A DNA stretch of 64,000 bases from Anadara kagoshimensis (lineage: Eukaryota > Mollusca > Bivalvia > Arcoida > Arcidae), in contig JACFYK010000022.1 of assembly GCA_021292105.1 (NCBI GenBank), positions 357,501 to 421,500 of the forward strand, read 5' to 3'. The notes below the pieces were generated by a model. It searched no databases and had not been told where the DNA came from. It saw only the letters and a program-made list of their open reading frames with translations. This document shows positions 1-64,000 of this stretch, in pieces. Each line of letters begins with the position of its first letter. The first letter of the stretch is position 1. A program made the position numbers and the translations under genes.

Positions 1-97
1 TATCAAAAATTTTCTTTTTCACTGATAATTCTGCAGTAATGGAAATTATCAAGAACACAATAGATCGCGTAATTATGCGACTTTTCAGGCGCTAGTT

Positions 98-1035
98 TTG
101 GCATCTTTGCGTTATAATACTTTTTTCGCGCAAAACATATCCCAGGCAATCATAATGTTGTTTGTTATCTCCTGTCTCAATTCTCTTTTCAGAAAGTTCA
201 TCATATTTTTACAATTGTTTAATGCATCTTTATCTGATGCTACTCACAAATCTTACACTAGAATGATTAATTGTTACATACAATTTTGTCATATTTATTA
301 CCTGAATTGTAGTCCATTTCCATCTACTCATGTTCTCTTCTCTTATTTTATCGCTCGTTTGTTTTTACAAAAGTTAAGTCCATCAACTATTGCGTCACTT
401 ATTTCAGCCTTAAGTTTTATTCTCATATCTCATAATATGATTGACCCTACCGATACGTTTGTCATCAAAGAGATAGTAAAATGTATTCAAAATGTAACTA
501 AAAAGAGTGTTAGACTCCCTATTGCTAAAGATATTTTGACCACATTGCTTGATTCTGTTGCTTACGTTATCGTTAATAGTGACAACCAGGTACTTCTGCA
601 AGCTATGCATGCCTTGTCCTTTTATGCTTTTTACAAGTAGGACAACGAGCTCTTCTAACCCCGCTAAGGTACTCCAAACACGTGACATATCATTCGATTT
701 CGTTACTTGTTTTTAAAAGGTATGTCTTTGGTGATTACTATCTACAATCTCAGTGATCTCCACCCAAACTATCTATATTTCGCATAGTACCAGTAATACT
801 ACTTGTCCAGTTGCTGTTATGTTTACTTATTTGTCAGTTTGGTCATAGAACTGGACCTTTGTTTCAATTTAAATCTGGCATCCTAGTTTCTTGTTCTTAT
901 TTCACTATGTCACTTATTTTTGGTTTAGACTCACAGCATTACTAGACACATAGTTTTTTCGAATTGGGGCAGCCTCTTCTGCTGCCGGTAGGAGAGTTCC
1001 TCTCAGTTATTTAGAACATGGGCAGAGATTTCTCC
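98..1035 (+). pseudogene. Degenerate tyrosine recombinase (integrase) fragment of a retroelement or Crypton-like transposon
   Basis: An open stretch from 98 to 640 reads as the helical N-terminal SAM-like and early catalytic region of a tyrosine recombinase. Recognisable pieces are 'ATHKSYTRMINCYIQFC' and 'LSPSTIASLISAL'. The frame stops at 640, just after 'ALSFYAF', where relatives continue with 'LRVGE' and the first catalytic arginine. Homology resumes in other frames: 'SSNPAKVLQTRDISFDF' near 650, 'CPVAVMFTYLSV' near 808, 'GPLFQFKSG' near 855, and the box II signature H-S-F-R-I-G-A-A near 950-985. That signature is broken by two extra T bases inside 'HSF/RIGAA'. The H..R pair is diagnostic for this enzyme family, which cuts and rejoins DNA through a tyrosine nucleophile. 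At least three frame changes and a missing C-terminal tyrosine region make it a fossil. DIRS/Ngaro-like and Crypton origins cannot be separated here. Confidence 0.8.
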
Positions 1036-4449: not shown

Positions 4450-5116
4450 AGATAATTATTTCAATAGTGGTCGTCATTTCAGTGCATTCCCAACCGCTAT
4501 TGAAATAATAGAGGTCGTTATTTCAGTGCATTCTCAACCGCTATTGAAATAATTATTTCAATAGAGGTCGTTATTTCAGTGCATTCACAACCGCTATTGA
4601 AATAATTATTTCAATAGTGGTCGTCATTTCAGTGCATCCTCAACCGCTATTGAAATAATTATTTCAATAGAGGTCGTTATTTCAGTGCAGATACAACCGC
4701 TATTGAAATAATTATTTCAATAGTGGTCGTCATTTCAGTGCATCCTCAACCGCTATTGAAATAATTATTTCAATAGAGGTCGTTATTTCAGTGCATTCAC
4801 AACCGCTATTGAAATAATTATTTCAATAGTGGTCGTCATTTCAGTGCATCCTCAACCGCTATTGAAATAATTATTTCAATAGAGGTCGTTATTTCAGTGC
4901 AGATACAACCGCTATTGAAATAATTATTCCAATTTCAATAGTGGTCGTCATTTCAGTGCATTCTCAACCGCTATTGAAATAATAGAGGTCGTTATTTCAG
5001 TGCATTCCCAACCGCTATTGAAATTATTTCAATAGTGGTCGTTATTTCAGTGCATTCTCAACCGCTATTGAAATAATTTTCAATAATGGTCGTTATTTCA
5101 ATAGCGGTTGCAACAG
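4450..5116. repeat. Right arm of foldback element, ~12 tandem subunits
   Basis: Reverse complement of the left arm: 'cattctcaaccgctattgaa' alternates with 'atttcaatagaggtcgttat'. It is longer than the left arm, so subunit number has changed independently on the two sides. Confidence 0.9.
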
Positions 5117-5590
5117 TGCACCATTGCTTGCTGATTTGTTTCTTTATCCTTACGATGCAGATTTATGCAGAACCTTGTTAAATCTGAAGAGAAAACTGTC
5201 GCCAAATCATTCAACTCAACATACAGATATATAGATGACGTTCTATCTCTTAACAATCCTAAATTTGGAGACTATGTAAATGACATCTAAAATGAAAGGC
5301 TACATTTGAAACTTTATGACAAACGTGATGACTTCAATTTTTCTATTGTCCTTTTCTATGCAGCAATATACCTGCTTCTCCTGCTTATGGTGTATTTGTT
5401 TCCCAATTAATACGCTATGGTAGAGCTTGTTCCCACTACGGGGACTTTGTTCAACGAAGTAGGTTGCTTGCAAATAAATTGTTGACTCAGGGATATTATA
5501 CGCCTAGGCTTATCAAGGCCCTCAAAAAGTTTAATGGCCGTCATCACTGTATTGTTGATAAGTTTGATGTCTGCCTTGGGTATATTTGAC
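5117..5590 (+). pseudogene. Reverse-transcriptase fossil (palm and C-terminal part, YIDD motif)
   Basis: Starting in the TGCA target site, 'APLLADLFLY' is readable. After one frame change comes 'FMQNLVKSEEKTVAKSFNS', then 'TYRYIDDVLSLNNPKFGDY' at about 5216-5272, whose Y-I-D-D is the catalytic palm motif of reverse transcriptases. After a stop at 5290 later pieces appear: 'LYDKRDDFNF' (about 5312-5342), 'LIRYGRACSHYGDFVQRS' (about 5407-5460) and 'LIKALKKFNGRHHCIVDK' (about 5510-5560). A typical full element would be far longer, so this is 3' only. The protein type recurs in lophotrochozoan and other invertebrate retroelements. A Penelope-like origin is my guess, not shown. The foldback element split it at the N-C-A-P-L-L codons. 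Confidence 0.8.
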
Positions 5591-5790
5591 GTCTCATAGT
5601 TCAATGTTCCTTTCACACAATTTTGATTACAAACGTGGTGGGTGTAGCTAGCTAAATAGGGGGTGCTTACCCTTCCGGAGCACCCGGCCTCACTTCCCTG
5701 GTGAAAGTTCACGTGTCTAACCTTACTTGACGGTTCCAAAGTTTTTACTTTGCTTCTGGATTGTGATTTGGAAATGGATAGTATGTTTGT
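5575..5790 (+). repeat. 3' tail of the reverse-transcriptase element (tail family copy 1)
   Basis: After the last readable RT codons comes a conserved non-coding tail: 'atatttgacgtctcatagtt', 'ttgattacaaacgtg', 'gggtgtagctagctaaatag', 'gagcacccggcctcacttcc', 'gaaagttcacgtgtctaacc' and 'ctggattgtgatttggaaat'. Related tails occur near 8.3, 21.4, 24.1, 41.0, 57.8, 60.4 and 63.3 kb. Confidence 0.8.
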
Positions 5791-6284
5791 TTTTGATCAT
5801 AAAATATCGAAGAAAATTACTGGACCATGCAAATTAGGTCAAAATGACTGACGTTTTGGTGCAACATGTAAAGCAACTAAAATTCTCCATATAAACAAAG
5901 TTTCATCGATATCGATCGATTAGTTTCTAGAGTGTAAAATCAGTAGAGTGTGACATCGTTATTTTCTCCCTTTCTATTTCAACCAATGAGATATGGCCCC
6001 CAAAAGGCACAATACGTGTCATAGGGAGCAAGCTATGCTATTTACAAAATTGTTGCGGAAAAAATTGGAATAATAATAATAATAATAAAGAGTAAATCAA
6101 TAAGACACTTAATAATTTGTAGTGATGGTCACAATGGAACCGTTTCTCTGATGTCATAAGTCGATGGTTTTTGCATCTTTGCCATACATGAGGTCATCAA
6201 ATGCAATTAGATTCCACACTTAGACCTGTAATGTAATCTATATCAAAATATAACCTCAAGTATTTACAATTGGAATCGACCTTT
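5791..6284. other. Non-coding stretch
   Basis: No gene is seen. There is a short (TAA)n run at 6070-6087. Confidence 0.5.
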
Positions 6285-8480: not shown

Positions 8481-11400
8481 TAATCGCAAGAGTGAAAAGT
8501 AAATTGATCGCAAAAGTGAGCTTATCCGCGTTAAGTATTATTGTGTATATATGTAAAGTTTGAACAAACGTTATTCATGCAGATTTTTCTACATATTGCT
8601 AAACTCCCCTAAATAGTACACGGTATATACATTTGTACCGTCACATACATTGTTCATGAGAATTATCTACTCCTTAAATCTAAAAAATCTGAGATATGTT
8701 TAATTGTTCAAAGTATTGCCTCCGGTGAATTTACTAAAATACATTTTCACCGTTTATTTATCATTTCAACATGTATAAAATATTTGGATTGAGTACTGAT
8801 GAGTAAACTTATACCGAAAATGCCGTATACAGATGAAAAACGGGTTAAGTAATTATGTTTACCAACTTTGATTGAAATCGATCTATAACTGAAAAAAGAG
8901 ACCGCACACTAAAACAATATCACCGCTAAGATTAAATTTCGTGAACTTAAAACACATATACACTCGCGTAAAAAACGGTTTTATGCAAACATTTATGTCC
9001 AAAATCCGTTTATCCATTTGAAACCTTTTGCGTGATAGATGGGTCAATCAACACAATGTTTGATTTCTAAATTTTACGATGGAATAAATATATTTTCAAT
9101 TAAACCTAGTAATGACTGATGCATACCAATATATAAGGTAGAAAATCTCAGTGAAGCTGAAAACATTTACTTGACGCCAGTCAATACAAAAACAAAATAA
9201 AAGAACAACAAGTATAAATAGTATTTATCAATAAACTGCTAATGTTAATCAAGCATTAAAATTAATAACAACAAGCATATTCATTTGGATGACCCTTAAC
9301 ATTGAATCTAATTCATGATATATTTTAAACAATGACCAAATTTTAGTAACATTTCAATCAGATGAAATGGTGAAAAATAAGTATGAACTGACAAAGTTGG
9401 CAGGCAATATATAATTCCCAATCGTTAATGACTGGTAAGCAGCATTGCTTAAAACGTGGCCAGGAAAACAATCAGTAATACCTTCAATAATATGAAAAAA
9501 CCTTAACACGCTCACCTTTTGTATTTAATGTCTGTTTATACAAAATAATATTGATATTGCAAAAAAGATGTAGGAGGAGTTGCCCATTCAACACATGCAC
9601 CGTTAAAATGTGGAGGGTGGACGTTAGGGTGGAGAACAAACATGTAGTTTCCTCCTGTTAGGAAGCAGTGGGGAACTAATGATGCACAACAAAGACGTCT
9701 TTCTCTTTAAAGAATACAGAAAGAAAGGTCTAGGATTTCAATAATGTAATAAAATTGTACTTACACTTTTTTGAACGATATACTTTTTCTACTCCTGTTC
9801 CGGGTACTGAAAATAAAGTACATGTACGTTATGTCTACTTTTATATTATAAACAAAAATAATCGCCATTATCATGTTGATTATATTTTGTATAATTTTAC
9901 ATTTACAAGTGTTATTAAAATGTAAAACATGCCCCAAAATATTATATAATATTCTTGTTTTCTTTGTCCTTTTTGATCTTGACAGAAAGATATCATATCA
10001 ATACGATGTAATGTTACAATGTAGAGTGGGTAATTGTCGGAGTCTAGCGGTCGGACGTTATGCGGAGTGTAATATCTTAGGGGTCAAAATCACATTTATA
10101 TTCTGATTTGTTCATCATAGTGATGCTTGAAACAAGAAACTATGTTAGAAACCAATAACTCTGAACTTAAGATTTATTTACAATACTTGAAGTGTGTCAC
10201 ATTATTTCAATAATATTGATATTCCTATCTATTTAAATGTCATCGGGAGAATAGACGCCAGTTTTGAATCTGTTACATTTCAAAGACATTTTTGGGATTT
10301 GTCATTGTGAATCGAATCTGCACATCCAGGTAAGAAAACACTGTTTACGTAATCGTCCGTTTAAGTGGTGTGGCAGCTAAAATGAAGGAATGCTAATGCA
10401 CAAAATGGTAATTAACCATGATTTAGAGTCACATGTATCTCTCTTTGACCATTCCACAATGTAATTGAAACCGATGCAAGTTCCAGGATATATTAGATTG
10501 TTAGACAGAACTGTCATATTCAGCTCTTATAAGGTTTTGAATTCCTATAGATTTGCAGATATTTTTACAATAATATCAGTGTATTTTTATATCCAGATCA
10601 TGAAACATTAATTAATAATGTAAAAATATATTGTGTTTTGTGTATTTTCATATGCCGTTAAATGGCCATTTTTGTTTTTTCCTGAATAACAAAAAATGTA
10701 AGCCAGACAAGACATGTTCTAATTGATCATGTTTATGTGTCCCAATTAATTTTGTCCATCTTCTTACATCAAAAATTTTACATCTTTAAACATAAAAAAC
10801 ATACAATCATAAGTCTATGCTATGCAGTTGCAAAATGTATATAAACAGATAAACTAAGTAGAATGATTTATGTTCCTCTACTTGTATAGTTAGTTATAGT
10901 TCATGTAGTCATTTACACCTCTAGGTTAACATGGATGTTTTTATTAAACCGATGTCCAAATTTATTTTAAAAACTACAATTATTCTGAAAGTATTGTATA
11001 TGTATTATTTAGTCGTCTCCCGGCAGATACAAAGAACTTTACTCTAACCTTTACAAAAATGTGTACAATGATACACTATATGAGGTTTTAATTTGCAAAA
11101 AACGTTTTCTCCTGTTCATTTACATAATACATTCTGTAAGAAAGCAAAATAATGTACCCAAACACAAATAAGCCATAGAACAGAACAAAACCAGAACTTG
11201 ATCTAATGATGGTAGGTTCACATTCCAATTTGTTTTTCAATATGTGCAAGTATTAAAACAAAGCAAAACATTGTGTCTTTGAAGAAGTTTTAAAATCCAA
11301 GGACTTTAATATCATCAACACCAAATTTAAACTGTAACACATAGTTGAAGAGTAGCTTACCAAATATTAGTTAAATATCTGCAAGCATTTAGGAAAAATG

Positions 11401-12204: not shown

Positions 12205-12660
12205 CCAAATTCACCGTGTATTGCATCGCGTTAGGGGGACATGATTATTCATATCGGGGACATGATTTGAAGCGAGAATTCCGACAGGTGGGTTTAAAAG
12301 CTTTTGTTTTGTATCAAAATAACATATTTTAGTCATATTGTTGCCTCACGGAACATACGATATGTCTTGAGGCAATGCATCCACGATTTGATCTAAAATA
12401 GCAATAAATACCACTTTACCCCTGTAAAATATTGCTGGTGCGGACTACGAAGCATTTTGCAATACAAAACGTAGTATTGTGTACAAATGAAGCTTTATCG
12501 GTATATAAAATATCATTTATACTTTCATCTGTACCAAACTTATACATCAAAACCCTATATTTCTTCCACAATTAGTGTTTTAAATATGCATCAAACGGAT
12601 GATTAACATCACAATCAAGAATATTCCACTTGTGTCCAGGCATCATTAGTTATTATAGTT
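12205..12660. repeat. Left long inverted repeat arm
   Basis: Shares with 18,953-19,780 (inverted) blocks such as 'gcaatgcatccacgat', 'aataccactttacccctg', 'attgctggtgcggactac', 'ctttcatctgtaccaaactt' and 'aatattccacttgtgtccag'. Confidence 0.85.
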
Positions 12661-12880: not shown

Positions 12881-14007
12881 CCCAGTTTGACAATCTTTCC
12901 TTAACTTAAATTAGCAAGATTTTTTGGAACTACGAATAAATATTTTTGTTATAACTAATGCAGATGTCTTAAGCTTGAAATAATCTTTAACATGACACCT
13001 TAAATTCCCTTATATCTTAACAGTAACAAAATTATAAAAGTTTTAATTTGAAAAATTTAAATTAAGGAAAATCTTATGTAAGAAATGATTGTGAAACGCG
13101 GCCAAGCTCTAGGCCAACCAAATATCTTTTAAACCGTTTTTAATTTTTTTCTAATATTAGGTATATGACCGTATATTGGTTTATATACCAAATGTAGACA
13201 CATAAAGTACAGACCTATCGAAAGTTTAAAAATAAGTAACAAAAAGAATTAAAGTTAGCCTGTCGACTGACCGAGTAACACATAGGCCTTGGTCGAAAAG
13301 CAGCCGAAATATGGATGTCAGCTGTTGAATTATATAGCTAATGATTGACTGGATGATCTTTTATTTTCGCACTAATTCGTTAGCTTTGTGTTAAACTGTA
13401 GGCAGGTGTGTACAGTAGGTCAAGGTTCGTGTCGTGACCCGATCTCAAAGCCTGTAAGAAGGCAGTCACGTTCCTGTGGTCAAACACGGGATATCAACTA
13501 AGTATTTTCATATTTTTGTCATAAAGACCTAATAGTTAATCACGAGGAAACAATTGATACTAAAAGTGTTTGTCACATATGTGCAAAGACGTTTTTCAAC
13601 AATTTCAACCTAAGAAGAAGAATTTAAGTGCAATATCTGCAACAAAACATTCCGAACTAAGTCAATCACGTTGCCACACGGACGGATTTTTTTATGTTCA
13701 GTCTGTGGCAAGGGGTATACGAAAAAGGCAAGTCTCGATAACCATATGCGATTCTTCTTCTATCTTGGAAAAAAAGAAAACTTGCGAAGTTTGTAACAAA
13801 CAACTAAAAGACGCATAAGCTCTAAAACAGCATTTAATAACACACACATATAAATGAGATGTTTGTTGTGGTTTGTTCAAGGACATCAAAACACATTTGC
13901 TTTCGTGTGATGACAGCAGTCAAAGACAAAGAGTGTATGGATGTTCTCAGTGTCAAAGAATGTTCGTCTCACCAAAGTATTTGTCGTTGCACATAAAGCG
14001 AGTACAT

Positions 14008-14515
14008 ACTTACTTACTTGTTTATTTAATTTAAACCCCTGAGCCGATATCTCTGCTGGTGGCTGGTGCCCCGAGGATATCAAAAACTCAGTAGGCAATA
14101 ATTTCGTATTATTGTCAAAATATACAATAGTTGTCTAAATTTCCTGACAGTTAAAATGTGAAATTTAAAAAACTAAGGTATACCCCCTCATTCAAAGTAT
14201 TTCCTTAGCCTAATTTGGTAAAATATATTTTGGTCCTTGGGTAGCTTTTCAACATCTTCAAAATAATTTGGTTTCATAATTTTGGTCCAAGCACTACTGA
14301 TGAGGAATGTATTCCGAAACGACCGTCTAGTGCTGTAAAATTAAAACTGGTATAATATGAAACTAGTCCTCTTCGTACGTGTGTGCATATAAGGCAACCA
14401 CCAGCTCTCTGCACAACTGTCTGTCCTTAGCCCTTTTCCGCTTCTTTCCACCCCATCCCCATCTCTTTCAGCTCTTTCTCTACTGTCCGCCTCCATGTTT
14501 CCTAAGCGAGTACAT
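14008..14515 (+). mobile_element. Retroposed insertion with 12-bp target-site duplication (Penelope-like/retrozyme-like)
   Basis: 'aagcgagtacat' occurs at 13,996-14,007 and again at 14,504-14,515, flanking a 496-bp insert. Removing the insert plus one repeat rejoins two zinc-finger coding blocks in frame, so the insertion edges are well supported. The insert carries a hammerhead ribozyme at 14,290-14,334 and has no open reading frame of note. Hammerheads of this kind are known from Penelope-like retroelements and from non-autonomous retrozymes. The insert ends in a pyrimidine-rich stretch (14,440-14,500). Confidence 0.8.
14290..14334 (+). ncRNA. Type I hammerhead self-cleaving ribozyme
   Basis: All conserved parts are in order. 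Stem I 5' strand 'agcacta' (14,290-14,296) pairs perfectly with 'tagtgct' (14,328-14,334). The core CTGATGA is at 14,297-14,303. Stem II is 'ggaat' (14,304-14,308) with 'attcc' (14,311-14,315) around a GT loop. The second core GAAA is at 14,316-14,319. Stem III is a 2-bp 'cg/cg' with an AC loop (14,320-14,325), followed by T-C, so the predicted cleavage is after C14,327 (GUC site). The very short stem III is typical of Penelope-like and retrozyme hammerheads, which usually cleave as dimers. All core bases I can check are intact. Confidence 0.9.
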
Positions 14516-14649
14516 AGACAAGCAAATAAACACTCCTGTATCTGTAGGAAAAGTTATGCCTACGCCATGTCCCTTAGACGTCACAAAATGTCTTGTGAAA
14601 GTGCAGTGGACAATAGGGTTTTGAACACTGACAGAATAGCACATATTCC

Positions 14650-23430: not shown

Positions 23431-24084
23431 CTGAAATCAACTATATCATGCGTTTGTATAAAGATACATTGTATTTTATGCATCTGGCTCTTTACAAATG
23501 CAAAGTTATTTCATTACACAGCAATGCACCTCTAATGGATAGCTAATATACAGACATTTGTTTCAGCATATGGCCTCTTATACTAAGTATTTATATAATT
23601 TGGTATATGGAAGGTCCTATACTAAAACAATAATCTGCTGTGGTGAATCTAGGGACATACATACACTCCTACATGATTTGAAATTAGAACTTAATTTTCT
23701 AAATTCTGTAGACCATATTTATTACTTTTTCCCTGTATCTTTTAGTAACATAAGTCGATAGTTAAAATCTCTAGCCGCACGAGGTTGGTACTAAAATATA
23801 AAACGTTCGTTCAAAGTTGGAAGTAAAACTTTGCCAACCAGTAGTTTGATTGAAATTTATTATTAACAAGAAACCTTCTGCGATTTTAATTTCATGCTTT
23901 CTATACAGAGCAATCTATAGTAAAATTCAACGAAATAAATACATAAATTAAATATTTTATGTTGAAACGTTAAAAGTTGAAATCGTTTATGTTCAAGTCT
24001 GTACTTCAGATGGTTTATGTGTCGAAAAAAATCGTCACACCGGGTTCGTATTTCAGATGGTTTCTGTATCGAAAAAAATCCTCA
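23431..24084. other. Non-coding stretch
   Basis: 'tttcagatggttt(a/c)tgt(g/a)tcgaaaaaaatc' occurs twice (about 24,006-24,033 and 24,051-24,079), and a piece near 23,860-23,910 recurs near 24,365-24,430 ('accttctgcgattttaa', 'attcatgctttctatac'), so the tail copy at 24,085 lies between direct repeats of about 500 bp. Confidence 0.5.
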
Positions 24085-24325
24085 TATTGCCTTGGATATA
24101 TTTAACGTCTCATTGTTCCATGTTCCTTTCACACAATTTTGATTACACACGTGACGGGTGTAGCTAGCTAAACAGGAGGTGCTTAACCTTTCTGAGCACC
24201 CGGCCTCGCTTCCCAGGTGGAAGTTCACGTGTCTAACCAAACTTGTCAGTTCCAAAGTTTTTACTTTGCTTCTGGATTGTGATTCGGAAATGGATAAGTA
24301 TGTTTGTTTTTGATCATATAGGGTT
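24085..24325 (+). repeat. Reverse-transcriptase tail family copy
   Basis: Nearly complete tail: 'atatttaacgtctcattgtt', 'cacgtgacgggtgtagctag', 'agcacccggcctcgcttccc' and 'ctggattgtgattcggaaat'. The antisense 115-codon open frame across it is a shadow. Confidence 0.85.
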
Positions 24326-24870
24326 CGTACTTCAAATGGTTTATGAATAAAAAAATCGTGACTCGTCAGAGAACTATTTATTATCAACATGAAACCTTCT
24401 GCGATTTTAAATTCATGCTTTCTATACATATTATTCTATATTAAAATTGAACGAAACAAATACATAAATTGAATATATTATTTGAACGTTAAAAGTTGAA
24501 AAGATCAACTATTCATAGGGTATCTTAACAGTTTTCGATCGAAAAGTGATACTGTCAAAATGACTGTAAGTTCTCCCGATATGTTTGTATCCGTATCTTC
24601 TAGAGTTACGTTTTACCATTTCATGGAATTTCGTCGGATTGTATTAGAAACTGTTGAAATTAAACTTCGCCTTAATTACTTAATAAGACTGTGATTGTAT
24701 TTTAAATTTTTTTAATACAAAATATGCACAACAAGGCGTTGAAATGTGTGTATATGTAACACGCGTTGACTTGTAAAACTTATAGTACATGCCTGTCGAA
24801 AGTATAACCGTAAGCTAACGAATTTGTGCCGAATCGACCGTTAAAATCGACCCCTCGTTAGCGAATGCTG

Positions 24871-27279: not shown

Positions 27280-28679
27280 AAACGATAACTCTGAGACTAA
27301 AATATAGTGATCACAAACCACATTAGACAGGTGACCCTATAAACAATAACTCTGAGACTAAAATATAGTGATCACAAACACATTAGACAGGTGACCCTAT
27401 AAACGATAACTCTGAGACTAAAATAGTGATCACAAACCACATTAGACAGGTGACCCTATAAACGATAACTCTGAGACTAAAATATAGTGATCACAAACCA
27501 CATTAGACAGGTGACCCTATAAACGATAACTCTGAGACTAAAATATAGTGATCACAAACCACATTAGACAGGTGACCCTATAAACGATAACTCTGAGACT
27601 AAAATATAGTGATCACAAACCAAATTAGACAGGTGACCCTATAAACGATAACTCTGAGACTAAAATATAGTGATCACAAACCAAATTAGACAGGTGACCC
27701 TATAAACGATAACTCTGAGACTAAAATATAGTGATCACAAACCACATTAGACAGGTGAGCCTATAAACGATAACTCTGAGACTAAAATATAGTGATCACA
27801 AACCACATTAGACAGGTGACCCTATAAACGATAACTCTGAGACTAAAATATAGTGATCACAAACCACATTAGACAGGTGACCCTATAAACGATAACTCTG
27901 AGACTAAAATATAGTGATCACAAACCACATTAGACAGGTGACCCTATAAACGATAACTCTGAGACTAAAATATAGTGATCACAAACCACATTAGACAGGT
28001 GACCCTATAAACGATAACTCTGAGACTAAAATATAGTGATCACAAACCACATTAGACAGGTGACCCTATAAACGATAACTCTGAGACTAAAATATAGTGA
28101 TCACAAACCACATTAGACAGGTGACCCTATAAACGATAACTCTGGGACTAAAATATAGTGATCACAAACCACATTAGACAGGTGAGCCTATAAACGATAA
28201 CTCTGAGACTAAAATATAGTGATCACAAACCACATTAGACAGGTGACCCTATAAACGATAACTCTGAGACTAAAATATAGTGATCACAAACCACATTAGA
28301 CAGGTGACCCTATAAACGATAACTCTGAGACTAAAATATAGTGATCACAAACCACATTAGACAGGTGACCCTATAAACGATAACTCTGAGACTAAAATAT
28401 AGTGATCACAAACCACATTAGACAGGTGACCCTATAAACGATAACTCTGAGACTAAAATATAGTGATCACAAACCACATTAGACAGGTGACCCTATAAAC
28501 GATAACTCTGAGACTAAAATATAGTGATCACAAACCACATTAGACAGGTGACCCTATAAACGATAACTCTGAGACTAAAATATAGTGATCACAAACCACA
28601 TTAGACAGGTGACCCTATAAACGATAACTCTGAGACTAAAATATAGTGATCATAAACCACATTAGACAGGTGACCCTAT
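27280..28679. repeat. 61-bp satellite, 23 tandem copies
   Basis: The unit runs from 'aaacgataactctgagacta' through 'gtgatcac' to 'acaggtgaccctat'. Twenty-three copies fill 1400 bp: 23 x 61 minus a 1-bp deletion in copy 2 and a 2-bp deletion in copy 3. Copies are almost identical; variants such as 'ccaaatt', 'gtgagcc', 'ctgggac' and 'cataaac' are single-base changes, some shared by several copies. Since 61 is not a multiple of three, it is not a coding repeat. The unit contains the 8-bp palindrome GTGATCAC. Confidence 0.98.
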
Positions 28680-30144
28680 AGAGAGGTGAAATGTAAAACA
28701 AAAGTAATCGAAGCCCGAGAAATAAAGGCATTTACTAAAAGTTAGGAGTGAGTTAAACTTATTTTCGAAGCTGCTTGCTTTTTTCTTTTTCTTCTTAAGA
28801 CACGCGACTAAGATCTATTTCTAAGACGAATCCCACGGTGTTTTTTACTAAAAATAAACCGCTTTGATTTCAACGAACTATTGCTCTAAAGAAATCCAAA
28901 CTCGACATTTCTTTACATAGAATAAAAATATAAATGGTTATGTTCATTTTCGTTTTAAAGATTATTTAATTAAATGTGAATATCAAAAAGTCGTTGACAC
29001 GATAAGCAGCATATACAAGAAAGATACGTAACAAGATTGACCATCTAACACCATATTTTCTGAAAATATTACGTTAAGGTAGCAACCTGTCATGGTATGT
29101 GAGATGTAATGAAAATGGTAAACCTATTCAAAATCGAGAAGCATGATTATCGGCCCAAATGTTTTAGTAAAATAACTCAAAACAAATCAACTGTTCTTCG
29201 CATGTTTTTATTCTTTGTGAATCGGGTGTTCAATACCAGATTAAATTTTAAATTCTACTATAGCAATATTATTGTAAATTGAAGGAAAATGTTGGGTAAA
29301 TTCCTGAAAATCGGCAATTTTGCCCAACTTTTGTACCAACTTTTATAAAACATCCCTAAACCAAAACCATTTGTATTTTAAATTAAAGATATTACTATTT
29401 TTTAACACTATATGCTGGTTTTTTTTGTGGTTGAGGACTGTGGCCAATGTCAAAAATTGGATTTTACCTGAAAAAACTAGTTGTTCCCGGCTACGATGCG
29501 TACATTTTTATCAGAAATCCCTACATTCAAGGGGAGCACCATGAAAAGTAAAGAAAGCATTTAGCACCACGATGTTTCAGGCGAGCGAAAAACTTTAAAA
29601 ATGGGCTGTGGCTGAAAATAATAAGATGTGAAAGGCTAATGGTGAATGTTTAACAACGGATTCATGTGCGTATTTGAAATGCATGTATATATTCGTAAAT
29701 CTCACGGTAAAGTCTACTTTCTACTACAGTTGTTTATAAATGATAATAGGAGACGATGAACGGCAATGTCAACGGCCGTGCTAGTGGTTATTAAGATACT
29801 TTGATCTAGATTATAAATTCGATTAAAGATTAATTTTTACTGACTCGATTTCAGTTTGAAACTTGTCTTTGTAATATTCTGAATTGAAAACTTTACTTTT
29901 TGTAAAAACCTTTTTTCTTGTAAAAAAAAAACAAAAAAACAATGAATTATAAACTAATGGAGCCGGGTTATCTTGCAATTTCATACGGGCGTTGAGTATG
30001 TACAATGTTATAGTCGAGTGGTAAATTTACGTGACACTTGCACCTAGATGCCAATTAACTTTACCATATCAGATAAATATTGTACATACCATATCCATTG
30101 TGTAGGTGGGTAGACCCACATTTCTTTTTGTGATTCATAATAAT
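28680..30144. other. Non-coding stretch
   Basis: No gene or element recognised. Confidence 0.4.
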
Positions 30145-58204: not shown

Positions 58205-58531
58205 CTGTTGTTGTGCCTGGTGGGCCAGCGGTTGTACCTGGTGGACCAACGCTTGTACCTGGTGGACCAGCGGTTGTGCCTGTTGGAACTGCTGTTGAAC
58301 CTTGCGGAACGGCTGTAGTACCTGGTGGACCTACAGTTGTACCTGGCGGGCCAGCGGTTTTACCTGATGGACCAACGGTTGTACCTGGTGGACCAGCGGT
58401 TGTGCCTGGTGGACCTGCTGTTGTACCTTGCAGAGCGGCTGTAGTAACTGGTGGACCTACAGTTGTACCTGGTGGACCTGCTTTTGTACCTGGCAGACCA
58501 GCGGTAGTACCTGTTGGAGCGGCTGTTGTTC
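58205..58531 (-). CDS. Mucin-like PTS exon, unit 1
   Basis: A 327-nt exon between 'tttgttag' (acceptor) and 'gttata' (donor), phase 1-1. It encodes about 109 residues built from a 7-residue repeat of the type G-P-P-G-T-T-A/V, with variants such as 'AVPQGST' and 'GPPVTTA'. The DNA is a 21-bp minisatellite, which is why the opposite strand is also open. Threonine- and proline-rich repeats are typical of heavily O-glycosylated mucin regions; the 7-residue period excludes a collagen G-x-y helix. It is the last PTS segment before the vWA exon. Confidence 0.85.
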
Positions 58532-58599
58532 CTAACAAATAAAAATACTCGCTTTTTGAAAATTTAAAATTGATCAAGCAGTTGGGACATCGATGCCAT

Positions 58600-60640: not shown

Positions 60641-60851
60641 AACCCCAAATTATATTAACATAGAATTGTTTAACGATTAACAGAAAACGAATAAAATTCC
60701 TTTTAAGCATGTTGTTTTCTTTTATCGTTTACTTCCTTTAGCAACATTCGTTAACTTATAAAACTATTTCCATTGAAAAATAGAAAGAAAAGGGTATTGA
60801 GTGATTAAATCTCAAACAAAACAAAACTGGACCGATGAATTTTAATATAAC

Positions 60852-61346
60852 CAGATGTTGTGCCTGATGGGCCAGCGGTTGTACCTGATGGACCAACGCC
60901 TGTACCTGGTGGACCAGCGGTTGTGCCTGGTGGACCTGCAGTTGTACCTTGCGGAGCGGCTGTAGTACCTGGTGGACCTACAGTTGTACCTAGTGGGCCA
61001 GCGGTTGTACCTGATGGACCAACGGTTGTACCTGATGGACCAGCGGTTGTGCCTGGTGGACCTGCTGTTGAACCTTGCGAAGCGTCTGTAGTACCTGGTG
61101 GACCTATAGTTGTACCTGGTGGGCCAGCGGTTGTACCTGATGGACCAACGGTTGTACCTGGTGGACCAGCGGTTGTACCTGGTGGACCTGCTGTTGTACC
61201 TTGCAGAGTGGCTGTAGTAACTGGTGAACCTACAGTTGTACCTGGTGGACCTGCTTTTGTACCTGGCGGAGCGGCTGCTGTACCTTGTGGACCTGCTGTT
61301 GTACCTGGAGGACCAGCGGTAGTACCTGTTGGAGCGGCTGTTGTTC
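60852..61346 (-). CDS. Mucin-like PTS exon, unit 2
   Basis: A 495-nt phase 1-1 exon with the same splice signals as unit 1, encoding about 165 residues of the G-P-P-G-T-T-A/V heptad repeat. It is 168 nt (eight 21-bp repeats) longer than unit 1, so length differs between units by whole repeats without changing frame. Open throughout. Predicted extracellular and O-glycosylated by composition. Confidence 0.85.
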
Positions 61347-61413
61347 CTAACAAATAAAAGTACTTGCTTTTTGAAATTCGAAATTGATCAAGCAGTTGGG
61401 ACATCGATGCCAT

Positions 61414-63490: not shown

Positions 63491-63703
63491 CCAACCCCAA
63501 ATTATATTAAAATAGAATTGTTTAACGATTAACAGAAAACGAATAAAATTCCTTTTAAGCATGTTGTTTGCTTTTATCGTTTACTTCCTTAAGCAACATT
63601 CGTTAACTTATAAAACTATTTCCATTGAAAAATAGAAAGGAAATGGTATTGAGAGATTAAATCTCAAACAAAACAAAACTGGACCAATGAATTTTAATAT
63701 AAC

Positions 63704-64000
63704 CAGTTGTTGTGCCTGGTGGGCCAGCGGTTGTACCTGGTGGACCAACGCTTGTACCTGGTGGATCAGCGGTTGTGCCTGTTGGACCTGCTGTTGAACC
63801 TTGCGGAGCGGCGGTTGTACCTGATAAACCAACGGTTGTACCTGGTGGACCAGCGGTTGTGCCTGGTGGACCTGCTGTTGTACCTTGCAGAGTGGCTGTA
63901 GTAACTGGTGGACCTACAGTTGTACCTGGTGGACCTGCTTTTGTACCTGGCGGAGCGGCTATTGTACCTTGTGGACCTGCTGTTGTACCTGGAGGACCAG
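63704..64000 (-). CDS. Mucin-like PTS exon, unit 3 (runs off the window)
   Basis: Minus-strand coding from the right edge to donor 'gttata' at 63,703, phase 1 end. The visible 99 codons are the heptad G-P-P-G-T-T-A/V repeat with variants ('AAPPGTK', 'GPPVTTA', 'VGLSGTT', 'ADPPGTS') and no stop. Its acceptor and any earlier units lie beyond 64,000. It has no internal ATG in this frame, so it is easily missed by ATG-based searches. Confidence 0.8.

Follow-up and report, generated by a model that had tools for sequence, protein, structure and literature searches.

An apparent LINE insertion with an antisense hammerhead motif in a zinc-finger pseudogene of the bivalve Anadara kagoshimensis

What kind of element carried a hammerhead ribozyme motif into a zinc-finger gene of Anadara kagoshimensis? 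The window analyzed here, 64 kb of contig JACFYK010000022.1, contains a short insert that a first-pass annotation described as retroposed and bearing a hammerhead, a description that the flanking duplication, the locally restored reading frame and the 3' tail all support. As to the identity of the insert, we arrived at a different reading: it is likely a 5'-truncated LINE with a hammerhead-bearing repeat lying antisense in its 3' untranslated region (UTR), where the repeat would have become nested in the LINE lineage earlier.

The insertion site and the anatomy of the insert

The insert and its flanks comprise the following features.

13,942–14,007, plus strand: C2H2 zinc-finger remnant that ends at the insertion site (frame reading)
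13,996–14,008, plus strand: left copy of the target-site duplication, 13 bp, AAGCGAGTACATA (repeat comparison, 100% identical)
14,009–14,503, minus strand: insert, which reads as a 5'-truncated LINE (putative C-terminal signature, tail and duplication)
14,009–14,119, minus strand: 3'-terminal part of the LINE-like insert, with an (AAGT)n-type tail abutting the duplication (sequence reading)
14,363–14,431, minus strand: coding piece 2, 22 aa, in a different frame, AKDRQLCRELVVALYAHTYEED, with the stop codon at 14,363–14,365 (translation)
14,430–14,501, minus strand: coding piece 1 of a LINE-like C-terminus, 24 aa, ETWRRTVEKELKEMGMGWKEAEKG, starting at the truncation point (translation)
14,504–14,516, plus strand: right copy of the target-site duplication, 13 bp, AAGCGAGTACATA, 100% identical to the left copy

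A perfect duplication of 12 bp around an insert of 496 bp had been reported; the duplication is indeed perfect, but it measures 13 bp, with 495 bp between its two copies. When the flanks are joined without the insert, a single C2H2 frame is restored locally, as originally proposed. The gene itself, however, is not intact: the finger remnants between positions 12,400 and 14,008 are spread over two frames and contain in-frame stops. Because of these upstream stops and of the finger fragments in two frames, the host zinc-finger gene is a pseudogene.

In the minus-strand direction, two frame-shifted coding pieces come first, closed by a stop codon; an AT-rich 3' UTR follows, and an (AAGT)n tail completes the insert. 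The stop is followed by approximately 240 bp of AT-rich sequence, then by 111 bp that are slightly less AT-rich, with a G+C content of 0.39, and, finally, by AAACAAGTAAGTAAG, which abuts the duplication. The earlier statement that this copy has no ORF was incomplete, in view of the two short coding pieces, which we take to be a C-terminal signature widespread among the reverse transcriptases of invertebrate LINEs. A truncated 5' end, a 3' tail and a target-site duplication are marks of LINE integration, and all three are present here. With its coding pieces adjoining one copy of the duplication and its tail the other, the outer element reads as a 5'-truncated LINE.

The reverse transcriptase domain itself would be expected 5' of the truncation, and the C-terminal pieces have no database match. 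Pfam returned one unrelated, sub-threshold match for piece 1 and none for piece 2; the phage records searched gave no match to either; a degenerate LINE C-terminus pattern run against viral contigs hit three stretches (one protein, unrelated by eye); and a literature search yielded no match in published text for peptide words of the pieces. As no database relative was found, the LINE identity is putative and rests on the C-terminal signature and on the anatomy of the insert.

The hammerhead motif

Within the insert, on the strand that is sense for the zinc-finger remnant and antisense to the LINE, lies the following feature.

14,290–14,334, plus strand: type I hammerhead motif (motif scan, stem search and an Rfam match below the cut-off)

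The core CTGATGAG begins at 14,297, GAAA occupies 14,316–14,319, and C17 corresponds to 14,327, with cleavage predicted between 14,327 and 14,328. Stem I consists of 7 bp (14,290–14,296 paired with 14,328–14,334), stem II of 4 bp closed by a UGUA loop, and stem III of 2 bp closed by a 4-nt loop. The position of the motif and the lengths of stems I and III agree with the first-pass annotation, whereas its stem II of 5 bp with a 2-nt loop has to be corrected. Thus, both core motifs, three stems, an open stem I and an NUH cleavage site, the hallmarks of a type I hammerhead, are all found. Stem I could extend past an internal loop by 7 A-U pairs, part of which is deleted in a second copy near 8 kb (see below). 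A motif scan detected this one full hammerhead in the 64-kb window, with no tandem partner.

In the covariance-model search that had been suggested for this motif, nothing in the whole window reached the gathering threshold of any Rfam family, and a search of 751 nt up to E = 5 produced four matches, none of them a hammerhead and all under their cut-offs. Among the five matches on a 91-nt stretch, the best was Hammerhead_1 (RF00163) at 14,291–14,333, with 26.2 bits against a gathering cut-off of 34 bits and an E-value of 6e-5 that refers to those 91 nt and, by our own scaling, becomes about 0.04 for 64 kb. RAGATH-1-hammerhead matched the same stretch as well, with 14.3 bits against a cut-off of 56.3. 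For comparison, a site resembling a hammerhead in the viral contig L001 (10,597–10,645, minus strand) scores 15.5 bits with Hammerhead_1 (E = 0.57, under the cut-off).

Could the motif be a chance match in AT-rich sequence, a possibility compatible with the LINE reading? The window is AT-rich, the Hammerhead_1 score falls under the Rfam cut-off, and the site was picked out of a whole scan. When 1,500 sequences of 64 kb were simulated with a first-order model fitted to the window and scanned on both strands, 4 contained a motif whose stems reached at least 7, 4 and 2 bp, and 53 contained one whose stems reached at least 5, 3 and 2 bp; the script permits very short closing loops and, accordingly, counts the real site as 7/5/3. 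An earlier set of 60 simulations gave one loose match and no strict one. The two core words by themselves are no rarer than expected (6 matches in the window, with 3.36 expected). The fold z-score is -1.17, with 24 of 200 shuffles equally stable. Against a chance origin, a diverged homologous copy retains all the core letters in the same place, and we consider such an origin very unlikely.

Whether the RNA would cleave is a separate matter. The minimum-energy fold is another structure, at -14.9 kcal/mol versus -8.8 kcal/mol for the hammerhead with the extended stem I. Because of this competing fold and the weak stem III, we put the chance of the predicted self-cleavage activity at about even or lower.

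The ribozyme-bearing module and its relative near 8 kb

The motif belongs to a longer module that is found twice in the window.

14,120–14,340, plus strand: hammerhead module in common with 8,625–8,840, 32% G+C (local alignment)
8,625–8,840, plus strand: second, diverged module copy; its hammerhead is degenerate, with the core letters kept and the stems broken (alignment)

The local alignment of the two copies scores 103, compared to 59 for the best of 300 shuffles, and a control alignment to the opposite strand scores 37, a value equalled in 93 of 300 shuffles. Blastn aligns the copies at 72% over 85 bp (E = 5.4e-5), and nhmmer with the module as the query recovers 8,682–8,836 (E = 2.8e-5) at 19.7 bits, with a composition bias, 21.3 bits, that is larger than the score; a window search with a profile built from both copies printed no matches. 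Given this diverged relative, the sequence comparison indicates that the genome has harbored some sort of hammerhead-bearing repeat. The 12 core letters are identical between the copies (12/12), compared to 94 of 154 positions upstream. In this alignment, two of the stem I pairs are kept in the 8-kb copy, one is compensated, two are broken and two are gapped, and Hammerhead_1 has no match to this copy up to E = 10. Because of these broken and gapped pairs and the missing Hammerhead_1 match, the 8-kb ribozyme is probably dead.

The copies cease to align at 14,340, immediately after the ribozyme and short of the LINE coding part; this coding part has a G+C content of 0.51, compared to 0.32 for the module. 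Aligned to the 8-kb region, the LINE coding part scores 16, which was equalled in 287 of 300 shuffles, and positions 14,009–14,190 taken alone align to the 8-kb side at chance level (38 of 300 shuffles as high). The 3'-terminal part, 14,009–14,119, was not detected beside the 8-kb copy either, nhmmer returning only the self-match up to E = 5. The second copy of the module is, then, free of detected LINE parts.

These boundaries bear on the possibility that the hammerhead is native to the 3' UTR of the LINE family, antisense in all members, and that the 8-kb copy is another 5'-truncated member. An end of the shared part just past the ribozyme is what truncation would produce, and the core letters are kept in both copies; on the other side, the 14,009–14,119 part is unrecognizable beside the 8-kb copy. 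On balance, this origin appears rather unlikely. We are comparably doubtful that a LINE family has fixed an antisense 3' UTR hammerhead that cuts antisense or read-through transcripts, or by which the LINE machinery spreads the module; if true, such a family would supply the hammerhead repeats of animals with an autonomous partner.

Under the nested reading, which we favor, a LINE lineage would have taken up the hammerhead-bearing repeat, in reverse orientation, within its 3' UTR: approximately 220 bp of a repeat presumably of the retrozyme kind would have entered the UTR as a nested insertion before this copy arose. A truncated copy of that LINE would then have integrated, on the minus strand, by target-primed reverse transcription into the zinc-finger gene, which could have been a pseudogene already or have become one afterwards. 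A plus-strand transcript of the locus could self-cleave after 14,327, which the sense transcript of the LINE could not.

The module has no recognizable duplication of its own: the best word shared by its flanks, AAAACT, was equalled in 553 of 1,000 shuffles. It contains a partial direct repeat (14,211–14,236 and 14,264–14,288, 52–53 nt apart); the 8-kb relative lacks most of the second unit. A candidate tandem unit near 8 kb (spacing 314) was dropped, its two sides aligning at chance level (71 of 300 shuffles); the two halves of the insert also align to each other at chance level (30 of 300 shuffles).

Relation to known ribozyme-bearing elements and other features of the window

Metazoan retrozymes, as described by Cervera and de la Pena (2020; PMC7229834), are short and usually tandem repeats that contain type I hammerheads, with units of 150–450 bp and a G+C content below 50%; the Mytilus repeats measure about 350–390 bp. 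With 221 bp in its shared part and 0.32 G+C, the module falls within these ranges, and it has in common with these metazoan non-LTR retrozymes the type I hammerhead, the low G+C, a unit size in the hundreds of bp and presumed mobilization by a reverse transcriptase. Unlike them, it carries a lone ribozyme, one full motif being found in the window, lies antisense within a LINE-like body and is enclosed by a duplication that belongs to that body.

The fit of module size, low G+C and hammerhead type to metazoan retrozymes (PMC7229834 and PMC7761336), together with the second copy at 8,625–8,840, speaks for the original proposal that the insert is a short non-autonomous hammerhead element, either a retrozyme or Penelope-derived, with coding pieces that are chance or captured. 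We hold this to be quite unlikely: the ribozyme has no tandem unit, and the LINE-like coding pieces and the tail abut the duplication at opposite ends.

Penelope-like elements have a reverse transcriptase with GIY-YIG. No Penelope protein was recognized in a by-eye reading, rather than a domain search, of the ORFs from 95 aa upwards in the entire window and from 62 aa upwards between 7,500 and 16,500; Pfam was run on nine chosen pieces. PMC7761336 describes minimal type I hammerheads within Penelope elements and also as dispersed motifs. The short stem III and type I class are common to the present motif and those of Penelope-like elements and Terminons; unlike in these, where the hammerheads are in tandem, within pseudo-LTRs in Penelope elements, no second hammerhead accompanies the one motif in the window.

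The same review cites HDV-like ribozymes in R2 and other LINEs and twister in RTE, with 5'-end processing of the sense RNA proposed as the role of LINE ribozymes (PMC7761336). Provided that the insert is indeed a LINE, the common feature is that a LINE copy contains a ribozyme; unlike those with proposed 5' sense processing, the ribozyme here is 3' and antisense. Hammerheads have also been reported in association with interspersed repeats of several animals (PMC3088659), and ribozymes are mentioned on the strand opposite to a human gene and in the LINE-1 5' UTR (PMC11620745). Our literature search found no title naming an antisense LINE hammerhead, which is no proof of absence from print. Among viral contigs, the hammerhead pattern hit one stretch (L001), the LINE C-terminus pattern three and the module pattern four, with L002–L008 unrelated by eye; a hammerhead pattern narrower than that used for viral contigs hit none of the genome contigs. 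A DNA search of phage records gave two records, matching over 22 and 28 bases.

Hammerheads in repeat debris are nothing out of the ordinary. The only unusual point would be that this one lies antisense within the 3' UTR of a LINE, as read from the sequence of one copy. According to PMC7761336, the metazoan retrozyme repeats contain no conserved motif revealing an autonomous mobilizing element, and Penelope elements and Terminons are the favored candidates for mobilizing them. A LINE copy that physically carries a hammerhead module is a lead to the mobilizer, for which one antisense copy is weak evidence. By way of LINE insertion, hosts could gain self-cutting transcripts.

Elsewhere in the window, two arrays of one and the same 53-bp unit in opposite orientation (1,837–2,273 and 4,507–5,100, approximately 2.2 kb apart; units compared by eye) could be transposon ends with repeat-array inverted termini. 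An ORF at 29–640 (plus strand) has a sub-threshold match to PF13495, a phage-integrase SAM-like N-terminal domain (E = 1.4e-5, 25.9 bits vs 27), and perhaps is part of a tyrosine-recombinase element. ORF fragments similar by eye (SISxSQSRSKVKTLE...) occur at 5,407–5,796 and 24,082–24,435 (minus strand), the former with no Pfam match up to E = 1. A tRNA scan of the window under bacterial settings found none. A VWA domain was matched by Pfam among the nine chosen pieces, and a tandem repeat of 61 bp extends over 27,280–28,680 (23 copies, 98% matches). One 21-bp coding repeat (TTAGPPG-type) forms three arrays (58,210–58,533, 60,850–61,348 and 63,702–64,000); near them lie two similar ORFs, of which the one scanned has a sub-threshold F5/8-type-C match in Pfam, and arrays and ORFs together perhaps represent a duplicated gene family.
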